The notes under the pieces are model-generated. The model did not search any database. It worked only from the letters and a program-made list of their open reading frames with translations, and was not told the DNA's origin. From a virus, in IMG/VR virus record IMGVR_UViG_3300037248_000084, positions 1-44,928 of that record: 44,928 nt of DNA; one strand, written 5' to 3'. Shown here piece after piece: positions 3,727 to 17,080 of this stretch. The position numbers were made by a program, and so were the translations under genes. The first letter of the stretch is position 1. Each line of letters begins with the position of its first letter.

Positions 3727-4040
3727 TAGTTGTTTTCCGCGTTCATCGCCTTATCAAAGCGCCGATTGATTTCCTCGCACTCTTCGATGGTGCGTTCGCC
3801 GCTGAGAAGATGCCGCGATACCGACATCTGCACACCTTCGCTCTGCGCCCAAGCCTGAAGCGCATCCTCGCATTCTTCGGTGTCGCGTTCCGACGGTGGG
3901 TAGTGCTCCCAGTTGACTTTGAATGGCAATGTGCGCGCTCCGCGCGCCATCACGAAAACATCGCATTGGTTCCCGCTGGAAGTCACCATCTCGAAAATCT
4001 TCTCGGAGCGGCCTCGGCTTTTGATTCGATGTTGGCTCAC
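3726..4040 (-). CDS. Hypothetical protein (104 aa)
   Basis: It starts with GTG at 4040, overlapping the upstream stop as GTGA. The N-terminus is MSQHRIKSRGRSEKIFEMV. The C-terminal half is acidic and helical with repeated ECEE/EECED patterns. No signal peptide, membrane segment or known fold was recognised. Confidence 0.6.
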   Translation of the reverse strand: MSQHRIKSRGRSEKIFEMVTSSGNQCDVFVMARGARTLPFKVNWEHYPPSERDTEECEDALQAWAQSEGVQMSVSRHLLSGERTIEECEEINRRFDKAMNAENN

Positions 4041-4498
4041 GCTGTCGCCGCCATTCTGCCACCCCGAAGAATTGCCTCCACCTCGCGCGCCTCTTCCCAG
4101 GAAAGCGGAATCGGTTCCCGGCGCCCACCGATCGGCGTAGCTCGCGCAATCGCCCGGCGTTCGCGTTCGGAGAGACGTTCGAAAGACACCGGTTTTCGTT
4201 CTCTTAGTTCAAGGGGGTTAGGGGAAGGGTAGGGGTGTTGTGATGTAACACCTGATGTAACAGGTGTTGTAACAAGCACATACAGCCAGAATCGCGGCGT
4301 GCGCTTCGCGCGTTCGATGAAACCGCGCTCGCAGAGCCGGTCAATCCAGCGGTTCACGGTCGCCCGGCAACACCGGCAGCGCCGGGCGATTTCGCCCTGG
4401 GACATGAAGATACCCATGCCGCGCTTTTTGAACCAGTGAAAGAGTCTGAGGATTTCGCGCGCGATGCTGTTGAGCCGCGCCCACTCGGAAGGAATCAT
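4037..4498 (-). CDS. Winged-helix/HTH protein (153 aa), replication-initiator or regulator candidate
   Basis: The ATG at 4498 follows a clear GGAGG and replaces a longer in-frame start. Residues 15-70 form a helix-turn-helix with wing: ILRLFHWFKKRGMGIFMSQG, then EIARRCRCCRATVNRWIDRL and GFIERAKRT. This resembles the winged-helix domains of phage replication initiators and MarR-like regulators. The C-terminal part is a Pro-rich linker plus an acidic/basic helix. A stable hairpin lies in its leader. It could bind the phage origin or act as a transcription factor; no enzymatic domain is present. Confidence 0.65.
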   Translation of the reverse strand: MIPSEWARLNSIAREILRLFHWFKKRGMGIFMSQGEIARRCRCCRATVNRWIDRLCERGFIERAKRTPRFWLYVLVTTPVTSGVTSQHPYPSPNPLELRERKPVSFERLSERERRAIARATPIGGRREPIPLSWEEAREVEAILRGGRMAATA

Positions 4499-4524
4499 AT
4501 TGCCTCCACCAAGGCGGAAACTCG

Positions 4525-4550
4525 GGGCCCGGTGTGGTGGCACCAGGCCC
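4525..4550 (-). promoter_or_regulatory. Stable hairpin in the leader of the winged-helix gene
   Basis: The RNA would fold into a 10-bp stem (GGGCCTGGTG with CACCGGGCCC, one G-U pair) with a 6-nt loop. It ends 26 nt before the start codon at 4498 and has no U-tract, so it is not a normal terminator. Candidate roles are mRNA protection, an autoregulatory protein-binding site or DNA-level structure at an origin. Confidence 0.45.
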
Positions 4551-4591: not shown

Positions 4592-5392
4592 TCACGGCTT
4601 GAACACCCTTGCAATGTGCTGAGCCAGAGGAAACGGTATCTTGGCTATTTGAGCGGAAGCGGCCTTCCAAGCGTTGAATTTGCTGCTCATCATCGGCATT
4701 CCATTCGGCGAGTCGCGCCACTCCTTTGCAAAGCCTTTCTCTTGGCCGCAATCCCGCTTGTTCACGTGCCCCACTGTTTTGGAAACGCCATCGCGTTCAT
4801 ATTTTGCGCCCGTCACATTTGCCAGAATACGTCCAGCGTGAACGCCTCCGCACTTCTTGATGTTTTGCGCCGCTGTCACATTGAACCCTTGCGGGATATA
4901 GCTCGACTTATCCGACCCGGACCAACTTATCCCAGGAACCTTCGCCGCGCACAGGGCGAACGGCATCAGCGCCGGAACATCGCCCCACAAATAGTAGGGC
5001 CCAAAGTGCCAAGCGGCTTTTCCTACCCATTTCTGAGCGCCGCGGACATTCTCAACTACCAGCGGGACCTGGGCCTCTTGCGCGATCCTAAAACAAGCTT
5101 CGAAGAGATAATTATCCGGTGGTGGAAGTGTTCGGGCCCTGGTCCACGGCATTGCGCGATAGCTGTACGCCTGGCACGGTGGCGATGCCACAATCACCGC
5201 CGCGTCCCGGAACTGCGAGCCGTGGAGCGTCAGAACGTCTTGCAGCACCAATTGGCCGGGATAACCGCCAGTCCCGTAATCGTGCCGCTCGATGTCGAAC
5301 CCGATAACCCGATACCCTTCGGCGAGAAACCCATCAGCCCAACCCCCTAGGCCGCAAAACAGGTCGATGCACAGCGGCTTTACTTCGGGCAT
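4592..5392 (-). CDS. C5-cytosine DNA methyltransferase
   Basis: This 266-aa protein has the C5 methyltransferase motifs in order: motif I IDLFCGLGGWADGF (residues 9-22, SAM binding), the catalytic SPPCQAYS with Cys73 (motif IV), and VENVRG around 113-118 (motif VI). The C-terminus holds IAKIPFPLAQHIARV (motifs IX/X region). It methylates cytosine at C5 in an unknown target and no partner restriction enzyme is nearby, so it is a solitary, probably anti-restriction methyltransferase. It overlaps the upstream nuclease gene by 13 bp. The target-recognition region is short. Confidence 0.9.
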   Translation of the reverse strand: MPEVKPLCIDLFCGLGGWADGFLAEGYRVIGFDIERHDYGTGGYPGQLVLQDVLTLHGSQFRDAAVIVASPPCQAYSYRAMPWTRARTLPPPDNYLFEACFRIAQEAQVPLVVENVRGAQKWVGKAAWHFGPYYLWGDVPALMPFALCAAKVPGISWSGSDKSSYIPQGFNVTAAQNIKKCGGVHAGRILANVTGAKYERDGVSKTVGHVNKRDCGQEKGFAKEWRDSPNGMPMMSSKFNAWKAASAQIAKIPFPLAQHIARVFKP

Positions 5393-6161: not shown

Positions 6162-6184
6162 ACCTCTTCAATCGGGACCATCAT
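6089..6184 (-). CDS. 31-aa single-pass membrane protein
   Basis: This short frame begins MMVPIEEVWVAWVIGIITG and ends ELGRRWGK: one hydrophobic segment followed by a positively charged tail. Its ATG overlaps the Gp157 stop as ATGA, strongly suggesting a coupled real gene. Small one-helix proteins of this shape are common next to phage recombination genes. The function is unknown. Confidence 0.6.
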   Translation of the reverse strand: MMVPIEEVWVAWVIGIITGILCRELGRRWGK

Positions 6185-6864
6185 AAAACGCGAATATGTT
6201 CGCCCCTCTCTAAGAGTTTAGCCCCCGGTACAGTGTTGGGGATTGTGCCGACGCCTTTGCAGCGCGGGCATTCGCCTCCAGGTGCTTCGCCGCGGTTCTC
6301 CATCCTGGAGCATTCCGGGCACGGAACGCGCTGCGCGAGTGCCTCGCGGATGCGTTCGGTGTCTGGCTGCACTTCGATGGCGATACCTTCAACTCTGTCG
6401 ATGTCCGCAGCCTTTAAGAGCGCTTGCCACTGAACACCGCGCATCGTCACCGCAACGTTGCGATATTCGATCGGTAGCACCTCAACCTCGGGAACGTCCA
6501 ACGCCTGCACACCCCCATTATTTTGTATCCGCAATCCACCGCCTGGAGTGGCCTTCAGTTCCCGGACGCCGAATTGTTGCATAACCGCGAGCGCGTTCGC
6601 TTTCAGCCGGTCGATATCACCCACAGCAGCGGCCCGGATATTCTGCAATCGCTCGATTTCGTCGTTGCACTGCCGCGCCGTCGCTTCGCGCGAGCGAATC
6701 AGCCCCATGTAGCTGGTCACCTTCGCCGCTTCCTTGGTCAAGTACTCACGGAGCTGCTGGTCGATCACTTTCAGCGCTTCTGAATCGCCTTCGGCTTCTG
6801 CTTGCTCTCGAAGGTCAACAAGCTGCTGGAGTGCGGCTTCGATGTGATAGAGAGAGATGCTCAT
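6181..6864 (-). CDS. Siphovirus Gp157-like protein with an inserted zinc knuckle
   Basis: This 227-aa protein has N-terminal helices (MSISLYHIEAALQQL), a long coiled coil (residues 35-98) and a C-terminal beta/alpha region with LDVPEVEVLPIEYR. The order matches the Gp157 family found beside phage recombination genes. In relatives the protein ends with a block like VPGAKL...EHLRI; here it is present at 212-227, but an insert at about 180-211 carries CPEC (182-185) and CPRC (199-202), a zinc ribbon. The start at 6864 follows GGAGG and overlaps the previous stop as ATGA. It likely helps recombination proteins on DNA. Confidence 0.82.
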   Translation of the reverse strand: MSISLYHIEAALQQLVDLREQAEAEGDSEALKVIDQQLREYLTKEAAKVTSYMGLIRSREATARQCNDEIERLQNIRAAAVGDIDRLKANALAVMQQFGVRELKATPGGGLRIQNNGGVQALDVPEVEVLPIEYRNVAVTMRGVQWQALLKAADIDRVEGIAIEVQPDTERIREALAQRVPCPECSRMENRGEAPGGECPRCKGVGTIPNTVPGAKLLERGEHIRVL

Positions 6865-7160
6865 CTTACAGGCCTCCATCCTTGGGCACGGCGTTCTTTC
6901 GCGAGTTCGATTTGATACACCGGAACGCCGACCGTATAGCTACCATCGTCGTTCTCGTGTGCACCCTCTGGTCCTTCTGGGCATCCGCGATAGGCGCGAT
7001 TCATGCACGTCTGCGTCGGTGGACTGCTCGTATTCATCGAGCCTCCACCAGCCAACGGCGCGCGATGCTGGAACGCGCCTGGAGCCCAGCACCGCCGCCC
7101 GATGCAACGCTTGTCGATGAACGAGTAGCGCGCGGGGTCACCTTTGCGTTTGAAGTTCAC
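6861..7160 (-). CDS. Hypothetical protein (99 aa)
   Basis: The start is GTG at 7160, overlapping the upstream stop as GTGA. The N-terminal half has four scattered cysteines (CIGRRCW, CMNRAYRGC). The C-terminal half contains HENDDGSYTVGVPVYQIE followed by a basic tail. No family was recognised. Position suggests an early accessory protein co-translated with the Gp157 homologue. Confidence 0.55.
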   Translation of the reverse strand: MNFKRKGDPARYSFIDKRCIGRRCWAPGAFQHRAPLAGGGSMNTSSPPTQTCMNRAYRGCPEGPEGAHENDDGSYTVGVPVYQIELAKERRAQGWRPVR

Positions 7161-7390
7161 TCACGCTCCGGGACGTTCTCGCGCACGTAGTCTTCCGTGG
7201 TGTATGCCGGCGTCCGCTTCTTTCCGGCATCGCTGCGTCGTTTCTTCGGCGGCGCTGGTGGTGCGATCGCTTCTTTCGGACAGAGTTTCAGCGCGCATTC
7301 TATCGCGATGTCGCGTTGAGTTGGCGTGAGCACTTCCAACGCTTCCGCCATCACGTGTGCGGCGTGAGCCATTCGAGCTGTGTTGGTCAT
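7157..7390 (-). CDS. Small hypothetical protein (77 aa)
   Basis: The protein has an N-terminal helix (MTNTARMAHAAHVMAEALEV), a second helix with ALKLCPKEA, and a Pro/Lys-rich basic linker (PPAPPKKRRSDAGKKR) that could touch nucleic acid. Both ends overlap neighbouring genes by 4 bases. The function is unknown. Confidence 0.55.
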   Translation of the reverse strand: MTNTARMAHAAHVMAEALEVLTPTQRDIAIECALKLCPKEAIAPPAPPKKRRSDAGKKRTPAYTTEDYVRENVPERE

Positions 7391-9855: not shown

Positions 9856-10057
9856 CGCGTCGCCTCAGAGCATCGGCCTCAATCTTGCGGTAAATGATCC
9901 CCTGCGCGGACTTGTCGTCATCTTTAGGAACCGAAACCGAGTACAGTACGTCCACCGATGCCTCAAGTCCCGCTTCGATAAGTGTGTGAGCGATTTTCAA
10001 GGCCTCAACGCGATCATTTAGGCCGCTGACTACAGCGATACGATTGTTCCAGATCAT
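9845..10057 (-). CDS. Small hypothetical protein (70 aa)
   Basis: It begins MIWNNRIAVVSGLNDRVEAL and appears to be a compact alpha/beta protein. The ATG overlaps the preceding stop as ATGA. It has no cysteines and no membrane segment. It is second in the early unit downstream of operator site 2. Confidence 0.55.
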   Translation of the reverse strand: MIWNNRIAVVSGLNDRVEALKIAHTLIEAGLEASVDVLYSVSVPKDDDKSAQGIIYRKIEADALRRRDAI

Positions 10058-10338
10058 TGCTCATTCACCCTTGGGTTATTCGAGTCTGCGCAGTCGTAGC
10101 AGAGTTGCGTTCCATCCGCGAGCCGCACGTCGTACTCGACCACCTTCCCGGCCGCAAAGCAGCTTTCACAGCACGCGTCCTCATCAACTACGGTGCCTTC
10201 GCCTTCGCACACGCGGCAGTTGGCCGTCCCGTGGTAGCCGGTCACGGAGTCGATATTTCCGATTTCGTGCTCGCCGGTGCCTTGGCAGAACGAGCAGACT
10301 TTGTATCCGGGGATATTGCAGGTTTTTGCTGGCGTCAT
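10054..10338 (-). CDS. DnaJ-type zinc-finger protein (94 aa), first gene of the early unit
   Basis: The protein contains CSFCQGTGEHEIG and CRVCEGEGTV, two CxxCxGxG knuckles like those of DnaJ, then CCESCF and LCYDCAD, a second Cys pair set; two zinc ions could be bound. There is no J domain. Only 3 nt separate the TATAGA element from the ATG, and no Shine-Dalgarno is present, so it may be made from a leaderless mRNA. It leads the recombination/DNA-metabolism block. Confidence 0.7.
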   Translation of the reverse strand: MTPAKTCNIPGYKVCSFCQGTGEHEIGNIDSVTGYHGTANCRVCEGEGTVVDEDACCESCFAAGKVVEYDVRLADGTQLCYDCADSNNPRVNEQ

Positions 10339-10341
10339 GTC

Positions 10342-10368
10342 TCTATACTAAACTGCGCACATGCGCAG
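10342..10368 (-). promoter_or_regulatory. Operator/promoter site 2 (DNA-metabolism unit)
   Basis: The operator TGCGCACATGCGCA occupies 10354-10367. On the minus strand CTGCGC (10368-10363) is followed after 15 bp by TATAGA (10347-10342). Transcription would begin at or within a few bases of the start codon at 10338. It is the best -10 match of the six sites. Confidence 0.65.
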
Positions 10369-15232: not shown

Positions 15233-15388
15233 TTAGCTGCCCTGCCCTTGGTAAATCTGCTGCACGTTCGAAATCAATTGATACGCCTGCTGCAACTGCT
15301 GCACCGAGAGCGTGTCTGTTGAGGGAATCATGCTCTGCGCCTGCGAAAGCGATGAAGCCACCGAACTAAGGGCGTTTGCGATGTCCAT
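15233..15388 (-). CDS. Small helical protein (51 aa)
   Basis: The ATG at 15388 has a strong AAGGAG 6 bases upstream and follows operator site 3 by about 35 bases. The product, MDIANALSSVASSLSQAQSM onward, is Gln/Ser-rich and probably an amphipathic helix pair (LSVQQLQQAYQLI). It is the first gene of the unit that ends with the endolysin and the strong terminator. Confidence 0.6.
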   Translation of the reverse strand: MDIANALSSVASSLSQAQSMIPSTDTLSVQQLQQAYQLISNVQQIYQGQGS

Positions 15389-15409
15389 TGAAATCTCCTT
15401 GGATGGGAT

Positions 15410-15437
15410 GCTATCACGAAGTCGCGCACGTGCGCAA
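15410..15437 (-). promoter_or_regulatory. Operator/promoter site 3 (tail-end/lysis unit)
   Basis: The operator CGCGCACGTGCGCA lies at 15423-15436. On the minus strand TTGCGC (15437-15432) and GATAGC (15415-15410) are 16 bp apart. The start codon with a good Shine-Dalgarno follows 21 bases after the -10 element, a normal leader. Confidence 0.65.
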
Positions 15438-15440
15438 GGC

Positions 15441-15728
15441 TTATGCCGCTTTTTTACTGTGGTAGTACTCGTGGGCTCGTCGGCGTTGTGCCTCGCGCAG
15501 ACATTTGCCGCCGTGCATCTTCGTAGTGAGTGGCGCGTTTTTCGCCAGCGGCTTCTTGCAGATGATGCACCGCTTGGGCTTGCCAGCTTTAACATTTTTG
15601 ACATGAAGCGAGACGGCGAACTCGACGATTGCGGATTTAGAGAGCCCGGTGTTGCGCGCCGCCTGCTCAATTTGTTTGTTGGTCTTGTCGGACACAAACA
15701 CGCTTAGGCGTGTTCCTCTGTTTGCCAT
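15441..15728 (-). CDS. Ribbon-helix-helix DNA-binding protein with C-terminal zinc site (candidate operator-binding regulator)
   Basis: This 95-aa protein has a basic N-terminal beta strand (RGTRLSVFVS, residues 4-13) and two helices (DKTNKQIEQAARNTGLSKSA onward), the Arc/MetJ/CopG fold that dimerises and places its strand in the major groove. Residues 53-76 hold CIIC and HGGKC, a likely zinc site, then a basic helix. It is flanked by two copies of the operator (one overlapping its own promoter), so autoregulation is likely. The mRNA would have a leader of only about 3 nt and no Shine-Dalgarno. Repressor or activator activity is not decided by sequence. Confidence 0.75.
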   Translation of the reverse strand: MANRGTRLSVFVSDKTNKQIEQAARNTGLSKSAIVEFAVSLHVKNVKAGKPKRCIICKKPLAKNAPLTTKMHGGKCLREAQRRRAHEYYHSKKAA

Positions 15729-15737
15729 GAGCCGAAT

Positions 15738-15765
15738 GTTATCACACGTCCGCGCATGTGCGCAA
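15738..15765 (-). promoter_or_regulatory. Operator/promoter site 4 (ribbon-helix-helix gene)
   Basis: The operator CGCGCATGTGCGCA lies at 15751-15764. On the minus strand TTGCGC (15765-15760) and GATAAC (15743-15738) are 16 bp apart. The -10 ends 9 bases before the regulator ATG. The site lies within the 3' end of the upstream gene. Confidence 0.7.
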
Positions 15766-15990
15766 TCGGTAAACGGAAGCCTCGACTTGAATCATGACCC
15801 GTTCGTACGCTTCGAGCGTTTCAATCATCGCCGCAGCTTCCGCACGGGTCAGCTCACCCAGGTGCATGTCCGCGACTTCGATGTCGGCATCGCGGCCCGA
15901 GCACAGCCGCGCCAGCCACAGCAGGTCAGCGTCCGTGCTGTGAGTCCGTTTCGCGAGTGCTTCCAGGGTGTGGGCCTGCTGGCTTGTCAT
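15742..15990 (-). CDS. Small hypothetical protein (82 aa)
   Basis: It begins MTSQQAHTLEALAKRTHSTD and is mostly helical and acidic; the C-terminal codons run through operator site 4. The start overlaps the preceding gene by 65 bases and has GAGTGAG upstream. No family was recognised. Confidence 0.5.
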   Translation of the reverse strand: MTSQQAHTLEALAKRTHSTDADLLWLARLCSGRDADIEVADMHLGELTRAEAAAMIETLEAYERVMIQVEASVYRLRTCADV

Positions 15991-16138
15991 CGTACAATCT
16001 CACTCTTTCAGTGTCGCCGTTTTCTAAATCAAATTCAACAAAGGCGAACGGTCGCCCGGTGCTTTCGTCGGTAATCGGTACGTCTCCGTAGGTGCGTTGT
16101 ATCTGCTGAAGCTGTCGGATGAGTGCCGAGATTCTCAT
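15926..16138 (-). CDS. SELI-family small protein, copy A (70 aa)
   Basis: The N-terminus MRISALIRQLQQIQRTYGDV matches two other small proteins in this genome (36732-36875 and 44044-44238) that share K/RxSxLIxxLxxxxxxxGDxxV followed by beta strands. Here the C-terminus is longer and hydrophilic. The start overlaps the previous stop as ATGA. The role is unknown; the triplication suggests a modular partner-binding protein. Confidence 0.6.
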   Translation of the reverse strand: MRISALIRQLQQIQRTYGDVPITDESTGRPFAFVEFDLENGDTERVRLYDDKPAGPHPGSTRETDSQHGR

Positions 16139-16407
16139 CCCGCCACCCTCAACAGATACGCCACGGTCGCACGTTTGGCGTCAACATCTGGAACCGCAAC
16201 GCCAGCTTGAAACGCTACCGTCCGCCACTGGTCGTCCGTCATCTTCGATGAGATGCGCGCCAGCTCACCAATCGTTACCGACTGGCTTGAGCAAGCCGCT
16301 CGAAGGATTGTCGCCGCCATTCTGCGACCCTTCTTCGCCTGATAGCGATTCGGACACAGTGAAGGAAACCCGCCACGAGGAACCACGCTAAGATGTGCAT
16401 TTTTCAT
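16135..16407 (-). CDS. Small hypothetical protein (90 aa)
   Basis: The ATG at 16407 overlaps the stop of the 38-aa membrane-type gene (ATGA) and follows GGAG. The product begins MKNAHLSVVPRGGFPSLCPN; the middle (SVTIGELARISSKMTDDQWR) looks like a helix-turn-helix. It could be a small DNA-binding protein but lacks decisive features. Confidence 0.55.
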   Translation of the reverse strand: MKNAHLSVVPRGGFPSLCPNRYQAKKGRRMAATILRAACSSQSVTIGELARISSKMTDDQWRTVAFQAGVAVPDVDAKRATVAYLLRVAG

Positions 16408-16520
16408 TTCTCCTTATCCTCCGGGAACATTAGCTCACCGCGCTCTGTGTTTCGGTCGCCGTCAAATGCAGCAAGCGCGAATCCCACAATCAGCCCGATG
16501 ATGATGTAGTCGATAACCAC
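16404..16520 (-). CDS. 38-aa membrane-type protein, probably leaderless
   Basis: The GTG at 16520 opens MVIDYIIIGLIVGFALAAFD, one hydrophobic helix, followed by a charged tail ending FPEDKEK. The stop overlaps the next start as ATGA. The promoter-like element of operator site 5 ends about 9 bases before the GTG, so the mRNA would carry almost no leader. No Shine-Dalgarno at normal spacing is present. Confidence 0.55.
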   Translation of the reverse strand: MVIDYIIIGLIVGFALAAFDGDRNTERGELMFPEDKEK

Positions 16521-16528
16521 ACCTGAAG

Positions 16529-16556
16529 TTTACGCCTGGAGTGCGCATGTGCGCAA
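16529..16556 (-). promoter_or_regulatory. Operator/promoter site 5
   Basis: The operator TGCGCATGTGCGCA lies at 16542-16555. On the minus strand TTGCGC (16556-16551) is clear, but the -10 is poor (CGTAAA at 16 bp or TAAACT at 18 bp). It precedes the 38-aa gene and three small genes. Confidence 0.55.
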
Positions 16557-16584: not shown

Positions 16585-17040
16585 CTAAGACGGCAGCGCG
16601 TCCATGCCCTTTTCGGTGAGCGTCCATTTTTCGACGTTGCCCTTAACGCGCACGTGGGCGAGTCCTTGCTTTTCGAGTTCTGTCAGCGTGTTGGGAAGAT
16701 GCAGCTCAAACTTCGCCGCGTGCAGCTCGTTCATCGTGCGCGGCTCCCGGAGCAACAGCAGTAGCCGCTTCCGGTCGCCCTCGATCACCAACGGCTTGAC
16801 GTAAAGGAATCCGTCCGCGAGTGCGTACACCAGCCGCAGGCCGAGCTTTTTAGCCGCGCCTCTAAGCTGGTGCTTCATATAGGCGTCCTCCGCGTCGATC
16901 TGCACCGCGCCGCCCTGGTTCAATGCTTCGCTCAGCTTCGTCACATACACGGAAATTCCGCGCGTCCCGACCGAATCCGAGAAGTGCAGAGTGAGCGGAG
17001 GCTTAACAACTTCCAGTTTTACTTTAGCGCCACGTTTCAT
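16585..17040 (-). CDS. Winged-helix-like regulator candidate (151 aa)
   Basis: The N-terminal domain (residues 1-80) is alpha/beta with a STAS/Alba-like feel (SVGTRGISVYVTKLSEALNQ), and the C-terminal domain (90-150) resembles a winged helix: RKRLLLLLREPRTMNELHAA, LTELEKQGLAHVRVKG and a wing ending KWTLTEKGMDAL. It is preceded by operator site 6 with only 12 bases between -10 and ATG and no Shine-Dalgarno, implying a near-leaderless mRNA. It is the second DNA-binding candidate in the operator regulon. Confidence 0.65.
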   Translation of the reverse strand: MKRGAKVKLEVVKPPLTLHFSDSVGTRGISVYVTKLSEALNQGGAVQIDAEDAYMKHQLRGAAKKLGLRLVYALADGFLYVKPLVIEGDRKRLLLLLREPRTMNELHAAKFELHLPNTLTELEKQGLAHVRVKGNVEKWTLTEKGMDALPS

Positions 17041-17052
17041 TTGTGGAGAGAG

Positions 17053-17080
17053 TCTATCACGAAACCGCGCACATGCGCAA
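17053..17080 (-). promoter_or_regulatory. Operator/promoter site 6 (winged-helix gene)
   Basis: The operator CGCGCACATGCGCA lies at 17066-17079. On the minus strand TTGCGC (17080-17075) and GATAGA (17058-17053) are 16 bp apart. The 30-bp context is almost the same as at site 1, including TTCGTGATAGACT. Confidence 0.7.

Follow-up and report, generated by a model that had tools for sequence, protein, structure and literature searches.

The window, a 44,928-base IMG/VR virus record analyzed at its full length, carries a 127-bp direct terminal repeat and recognizable genes for a portal, head protease, terminase, and endolysin. The nearest cellular contig for its portal (52%) is a 3.9-kb contig of an Acidobacteriia MAG; because this is a single short contig, Acidobacteriota can be named as the host only as a weak guess. 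A Mu Gam-like end-protection protein (phrog_253) is encoded at 6181-6879 on the minus strand, and no transposase was recognized in the phage.

The locus of interest encodes a 95-aa protein on the minus strand (15441-15728; ATG at 15728, stop at 15441), with a ribbon-helix-helix (RHH) domain at approximately residues 6-47 and a CxxC-x14-HxxxC arrangement at residues 54-76. Its top Pfam match is RHH_1 (residues 7-43, E 0.0016), at 18.8 bits against a curated cut-off of 20.5 and therefore below it, and its top PDB sequence match is CopG (1b01; E 0.014, residues 6-48), in agreement with the RHH N-terminus assigned in the original prediction. The Cys-x2-Cys and His-x3-Cys pairs described there were likewise read from the sequence, as C54-I-I-C57 and H72-G-G-K-C76, together with a basic C-terminal stretch. 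The AlphaFold2 (AF2) model from the single sequence has a mean pLDDT of only 55, with helices at residues 14-27, 31-47, and 75-92 and no strand; the first two helices fall where an RHH domain has them, and the third is basic. All four candidate metal ligands (C54, C57, H72, and C76) are present, in a model of low confidence, and the tail may bind zinc. Residues 48-95 matched no Pfam family and, among PHROGs, only phrog_1043 (unknown function; E 0.09). No convincing counterpart of the Cys/His tail was found among 90 records, and it was seen only in the window phage; judging from this distribution, the tail cannot be the reader of a half-site that is common to other phages.

A natural single-chain tandem RHH protein from another phage (G055; L289 1174-1464) gave a far better AF2 model from sequence alone, with two beta-alpha-alpha units at pLDDT 80. 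Its top structural matches are F-plasmid relaxosome chains (Z 10.7, rmsd 2.1, 87 aligned), which we take to be TraY, and it also matches DndE (7.8), single-chain Arc (Z 7.5, rmsd 2.5, 76 aligned), and AvtR (Z 7.5, rmsd 3.0, 78 aligned). The model supports an RHH fold for one member of the family, not for the window protein itself.

The palindrome TGCGCAYRTGCGCA is present in six copies in the window at no more than one mismatch (597, 10354, 15423, 15751, 16542, and 17066), compared to a mean of 0.10 and a maximum of 2 in 100 dinucleotide shuffles, so that the predicted six-copy motif is upheld. With three mismatches allowed, 13 copies were found and 13.2 are expected by chance; therefore, only the six copies stand out. 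A generic palindrome scan with two mismatches was not above chance, and a search of eight other records for perfect gapped palindromes that recur found none. Each of the six copies coincides with the -35 region of a promoter on the minus strand, with a start codon 15-34 nt downstream. On the transcribed strand, five of them read TTGCGCANNTGCGC, followed at an 18-nt -35/-10 spacing by TAGACT, TAGCAT, TAACAT, TAAACT, or TAGACT, while in the remaining copy, at 10354, CTGCGC is paired with a weaker -10 element, TAGAGA; the roles of -35, -10, and spacer within the operators are predicted ones. Leaders are short, and for some of these genes leaderless translation is possible.

The RHH gene's own promoter (15736-15765) places the palindrome TTGCGCACATGCGC (core 15751-15764, 22 nt before the ATG) at -35, followed by an 18-nt spacer and a -10 element, TAACAT, at 15741-15736; this site overlaps the 3' end of the ORF at 15742-15990. 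The other five sites are also located at viral promoters, all on the minus strand. The predicted operator at 15408-15437 (core 15423-15436, -10 TAGCAT) precedes a gene for a 51-aa protein (15233-15388). The RHH gene had been described as bracketed by two operators, and geometrically a palindrome does lie on each side of it; however, the 15423 site has a separate -10 element and lies in the promoter of the adjacent gene, which leaves the RHH gene with one operator rather than two. Further upstream, the predicted operator at 16527-16556 (core 16542-16555, -10 TAAACT) precedes a 38-aa membrane-like ORF (16404-16520), behind which follow small genes at 16135-16407, 15926-16138, and 15742-15990, and the four appear to form one operon. 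A fourth predicted operator (17051-17080; core 17066-17079, -10 TAGACT) belongs to a 151-aa gene at 16585-17040, and a fifth (10340-10368; core 10354-10367) to a 94-aa Cys-rich protein (10054-10338, minus strand), whose match to DnaJ_CXXCXGXG (E 0.0008) is below the cut-off. The sixth (582-611; core 597-610, -10 TAGACT) precedes, at a distance of 383 nt, a glycosyltransferase-like gene extending on the minus strand from approximately 237 across the circular junction to 44235 (Glycos_transf_2, E 0.001, below the cut-off). This gene is cut by the record ends and reaches full length only after joining over the 127-bp repeat. The predicted targets in the window are thus small accessory genes and a glycosyltransferase operon.

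Both TGCGCA boxes of an operator read the same on either strand, and 8 bp separate them, a spacing that would accommodate two RHH dimers bound next to each other. Since the motif overlaps the -35 element, conservation of TTGCGC may partly reflect promoter function, which does not explain the second half of the palindrome. The operator also contains GCGC twice, making its methylation a possible means of control; C5 cytosine methyltransferase genes lie at 4592-5392 of the window (minus strand; PF00145 above the cut-off) and at L023 884-1636. The homolog in phage G006 (58% identity) is located directly 3' of an RHH gene that has the motif in front of it.

Relatives of the system were sought by protein and by promoter. 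Close homologs of the RHH protein were found neither in IMG/VR, GTDB genome contigs, and INPHARED phages nor, besides the window itself, in the first 15 records, where a PF01402 search matched only the window and G006, both below the cut-off; 50 further records yielded partial matches at best, none better than E 0.003. When IMG/VR was scanned for nothing but the promoter pattern, 10 stretches came back; tblastn of window ORFs identified several of them (G005, G001/G008/G010, and G006) as relatives of the window phage by portal, tail, or other genes, as chance matches would not be. A portal alignment yielded 80 loci. TTGCGCANNTGCGC was present in 7 of 50 records (one of them the MAG) and a reversed control pattern in 0 of 50. 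In both G006 and G023, the motif is followed by a gene for a small RHH protein, and a three-sequence HMM (window, G006, and G023; 5,334 ORFs) ranked the RHH proteins of G018, G017, G055, and G005 next, with versions of the motif present upstream of all four genes. A nine-seed HMM (25,306 ORFs, 90 records) added G044, G019, G034, G049, G054, G062, and G040. The RHH proteins of other phages are only 22-27% identical to that of the window.

Further scans covered additional stretches. The 16-mer TTGCGCAATTGCGCAA was found in 24 stretches, most without an RHH gene by HMM; one (L270) is G023, and in another (L266) the site is followed after 55 nt by an RHH-like ORF, identified by eye only. A CACGTG-form scan returned 6 stretches, with no RHH gene in the new fragments L290, L292, and L293, and a tail-gene scan, serving as an out-of-sample check, returned 14 loci, nine from previously unseen records. 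A new phage, L262/L263 (the L263 record being G130), encodes an RHH protein (E 1e-8) whose promoter contains ACTTGCGCGAATC, and the phage has four TTGCGCA promoters. TTGCGCA promoters were absent from G125 to G129 and G131 of the tail-gene scan; G125 has an RHH match (2e-6) without the motif, and G129 a weak one (0.04).

The RHH genes of these phages frequently carry the half-site in their own promoters. TTGCGCA was found within 100 nt upstream of the RHH ribbon for 9 of 15 RHH genes (a hand-set 14 plus G006), compared to 101 of 3667 other ORFs in the same genomes (p 6e-11). The enrichment persisted when the three motif-found genes were left out (6/12, p 4e-7), when in addition one gene was kept per near-identical group (5/10, p 4e-6), and for a subset of six genes picked up by the HMM independently of the motif (3/6, p 4e-4). 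Strict agreement with TGCGCANNTGCGCA in the 15 RHH promoters was a weaker signal: the combined p was 9e-6 relative to random windows and 1e-4 relative to other ORFs, rising to 2e-4 and 2e-3, respectively, once the window and G006 were removed, and many individual genes did not differ from chance. The half-site TTGCGCA is more widely shared among the relatives than the whole palindrome is. Among the six RHH genes without TTGCGCA, G055 has ATGCGCATGTGCGC, G019 has TTGCGAA, and G005 and G062 have GCACGTGC-TACACT (by eye); the G054 and G040 promoters showed no clear version of the motif. G045, a weak RHH match, has a perfect TGCGCACGTGCGCA. In a motif-free recurrence test of 10 genes, low p values (0.016 to 0.066) were obtained only for G000, G023, G055, and G024, the other six not being above background.

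RHH genes and TTGCGCA promoters also occur together across phages. With the pattern TTGCGCA-N14-17-TANNNT, at least two promoters were counted in 15 of 59 records of at least 14 kb (7 in G018 and 5 each in the window and G034) and none in 40, while permuted 7-mers gave approximately 0.1 promoters per genome. Of the 45 records that reach 25 kb and encode a portal, 11 combine an RHH gene with at least two promoters, 3 have the RHH gene only, 2 the promoters only, and 29 neither (p 2e-6), using an RHH list set by hand that includes G024 (leave-one-out E 0.0013) and excludes G058 and G032 at similar values. Fixed leave-one-out thresholds of 1e-4, 2e-4, 1e-3, and 2e-3 gave Fisher p values of 1.3e-4, 2e-5, 6.4e-5, and 2.5e-5, respectively, and a threshold of 1e-2 gave 0.0022; over all 59 records, with RHH calls at E 0.01 and at least two sites, p was 0.0009. 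With RHH calls at E up to 1, the association was absent from the 59 records because weak RHH-like matches occur nearly everywhere. Both traits change nine times on the portal tree. Independent pairs changed in the same direction in about 4 to 5 of 7 to 10 cases and hardly ever in opposite directions (never in the set as first defined), and the tree-corrected sign test gave a median p of 0.06 to 0.125, the pairs being too few for significance.

The discordant records are of two kinds. Three to four RHH phages are without TTGCGCA promoters (G040, G054, and G062, as well as G058 at E 9e-4). Conversely, no RHH gene was detected in G001/G008/G010, where the motif is present and the records are fragments. 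Of the two records with promoters only, G020 has an RHH-like ORF (E 0.17) behind TACTTGCGCGATTG, identified by eye, and G028 has an RHH domain at E 0.007. In the latter (1036-1386; L172), the RHH domain appears to be fused to an HTH-like region, with TTGCGC-type sites around the -10 element.

These comparisons lend good support to the proposal that the RHH protein reads the six-copy motif, for which it had been named the best candidate. Another DNA-binding protein of the phage could do so instead, with the RHH gene only one of its targets. The promoter of the gene for the 151-aa protein at 16585-17040 contains the motif, and the protein at 4037-4543 (minus strand), HTH_36/MarR-like and a third regulator candidate of the phage, scores above the cut-off for both of those families. 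However, the 151-aa protein lacks a Pfam domain, and it has no homologs in a close search of IMG/VR or among the 25,306 ORFs of the 90 records (best non-self E 0.58), many of which carry the motif; the 4037-4543 protein had no tblastn match in the first record set. A reader of this kind is accordingly improbable.

A host origin of the signal has also been considered, in which a host factor, or a host sigma factor with TTGCGC as its -35 element, recognizes the motif and the phages use a host regulon or promoter type. The position of TTGCGC at -35, 16-18 nt before a TANNNT element, is in keeping with such a mechanism. Yet most RHH-less relatives of the same clade are without such promoters, and in 61 genomes of the candidate host's class (itself uncertain, resting on the one 3.9-kb MAG contig) the palindrome is scattered at approximately one per genome; both observations make a host factor quite unlikely. 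The central bases of the motif, moreover, differ by phage.

Thus, the 95-aa protein is probably a phage-encoded regulator of the CopG type that represses six promoters, including its own, such that accessory genes are switched on at DNA entry and then turned down. By analogy with the RHH family, its dimers would form an antiparallel ribbon whose two strands enter the major groove where the two self-palindromic TGCGCA boxes lie. With the -35 element (TTGCGC) and some of the spacer inside the operator, RNA polymerase would be kept off the six promoters by bound protein, and because one operator lies in the regulator's own promoter, its level would be self-limited. The target genes would fire on entry of naked phage DNA and then be turned down, as with Reg of p576 and with SvtR, AvtR, and F55. 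The Cys/His tail would be a lineage-specific addition for stability, oligomerization, or extra DNA contact.

The RHH protein might instead bind the motif as an activator or a DNA-organizing factor. AvtR activates at low concentration, according to PMC5569661, and the best structural match of the tandem RHH homolog is an F relaxosome chain (Z 10.7). In contrast, the window's sites overlap the -35 element rather than lying upstream of the promoters, and they are spread over promoters rather than clustered at one place, suggesting that repression is the likelier function and that activation or DNA organization is an unlikely one.

The glycosyltransferase-like target is conserved through the phage clade, with homologs in most relatives. 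The motif lies directly upstream of the homolog in G005 (37 nt) and G023 (42 nt) and 321 nt upstream in G001/G008/G010. Of the records for which no RHH gene is listed, the only others with TTGCGCA ahead of the glycosyltransferase are G058/L104/L105 (at 41 nt, without the full motif) and L013 (at 31 nt), and the RHH phages G017, G018, G034, G044, and G055 have no TTGCGCA upstream of their homolog. The promoters mark a regulon of mostly function-unassigned accessory genes, and the glycosyltransferase, with the motif also before its homologs in G005 and G023, and the G006 methyltransferase provide a practical list for anti-defense screening.

The divergence of these regulators may be accompanied by a change in specificity. 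The ribbon residue aligned to R4 of CopG, presumably a DNA-contact residue, is R in the window, G005, G055, and G045, where the half-site is TTGCGCA or TGCGCA followed by C/T. It is K in G006, G017, the G018/G019/G044 group, the G020/G024/G034 group, G023, G049, and G130, where A/G comes next in nearly all sites. Exceptions are G028 (R, then A) and single odd sites, e.g., G017 at 7323. In lineages counted by hand, a pyrimidine follows in 4 of 5 with R and 0 of 7 with K (Fisher p 0.010), making a one-residue code possible as a post hoc lead with one exception. A more speculative and rather doubtful extension is that the soil-phage clade runs its accessory regulon via fast-diverging RHH-operator pairs, in which TTGCGCA is kept and the central bases follow the first ribbon residue (pyrimidine for R, purine for K), giving each phage an immunity-like specificity, with a zinc-dependent switch added in the window phage. 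If this were true, the genes behind the promoters would be candidate anti-defense or host-modifying genes. The natural series of RHH-operator pairs allows DNA specificity to be read against sequence, the Cys/His tail raises the question of a metal-controlled repressor, and uncultivated soil phages gain a regulator with a defined, predictable operator.

Several known systems resemble the one described here. CopG of pMV158 is a small autoregulatory repressor that lacks a Cys/His tail and serves one plasmid operon. The window protein shares its beta-alpha-alpha domain (RHH_1/PF01402) and has it as best PDB sequence match; it differs in its six dispersed promoters, its tail, and a Pfam score below the cut-off. 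SvtR, AvtR, and F55 of archaeal viruses are RHH proteins that bind at their own promoter and also at several places elsewhere in the virus, with three additional sites for SvtR and eight potential ones for AvtR, itself a tandem RHH protein (PMC5569661). The window regulator, with a predicted operator in its own promoter and five others at viral promoters, is similar, and the tandem protein of G055 has the AvtR layout. In contrast to the archaeal cases, however, the window has bacterial sigma70-type promoters with the operator inside the -35/spacer region, different sites, and the Cys/His tail, and no sequence homology was seen.

In bacteria, Reg of p576 (clade II of the pLS20 family) is reported (PMC8708921) to repress its own promoter and several accessory operons as an RHH protein, leading to transient expression on DNA entry. 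That system belongs to a Bacillus conjugative plasmid with operators flanking the promoters, whereas the proteins described here are phage RHH proteins, those of other phages being 22-27% identical to the window's. Aca regulators are comparable in that an autoregulator shares an early-gene promoter motif; in PMC11065993, the promoter motif that a small autoregulator has in common with scattered small viral genes was used to find anti-defense genes. Aca8, however, is a predicted winged HTH, and the window targets are no more than candidates for an anti-defense function. No account of this RHH-motif system was found in PMC open papers for the terms tried. Dispersed operators read by self-controlled viral RHH proteins are thus already known from archaeal viruses, and an RHH establishment regulon from p576; what is new is that one member has a Cys/His tail, that the operator is embedded in a sigma70-like promoter, and that a clade of phages has divergent RHH-operator pairs.
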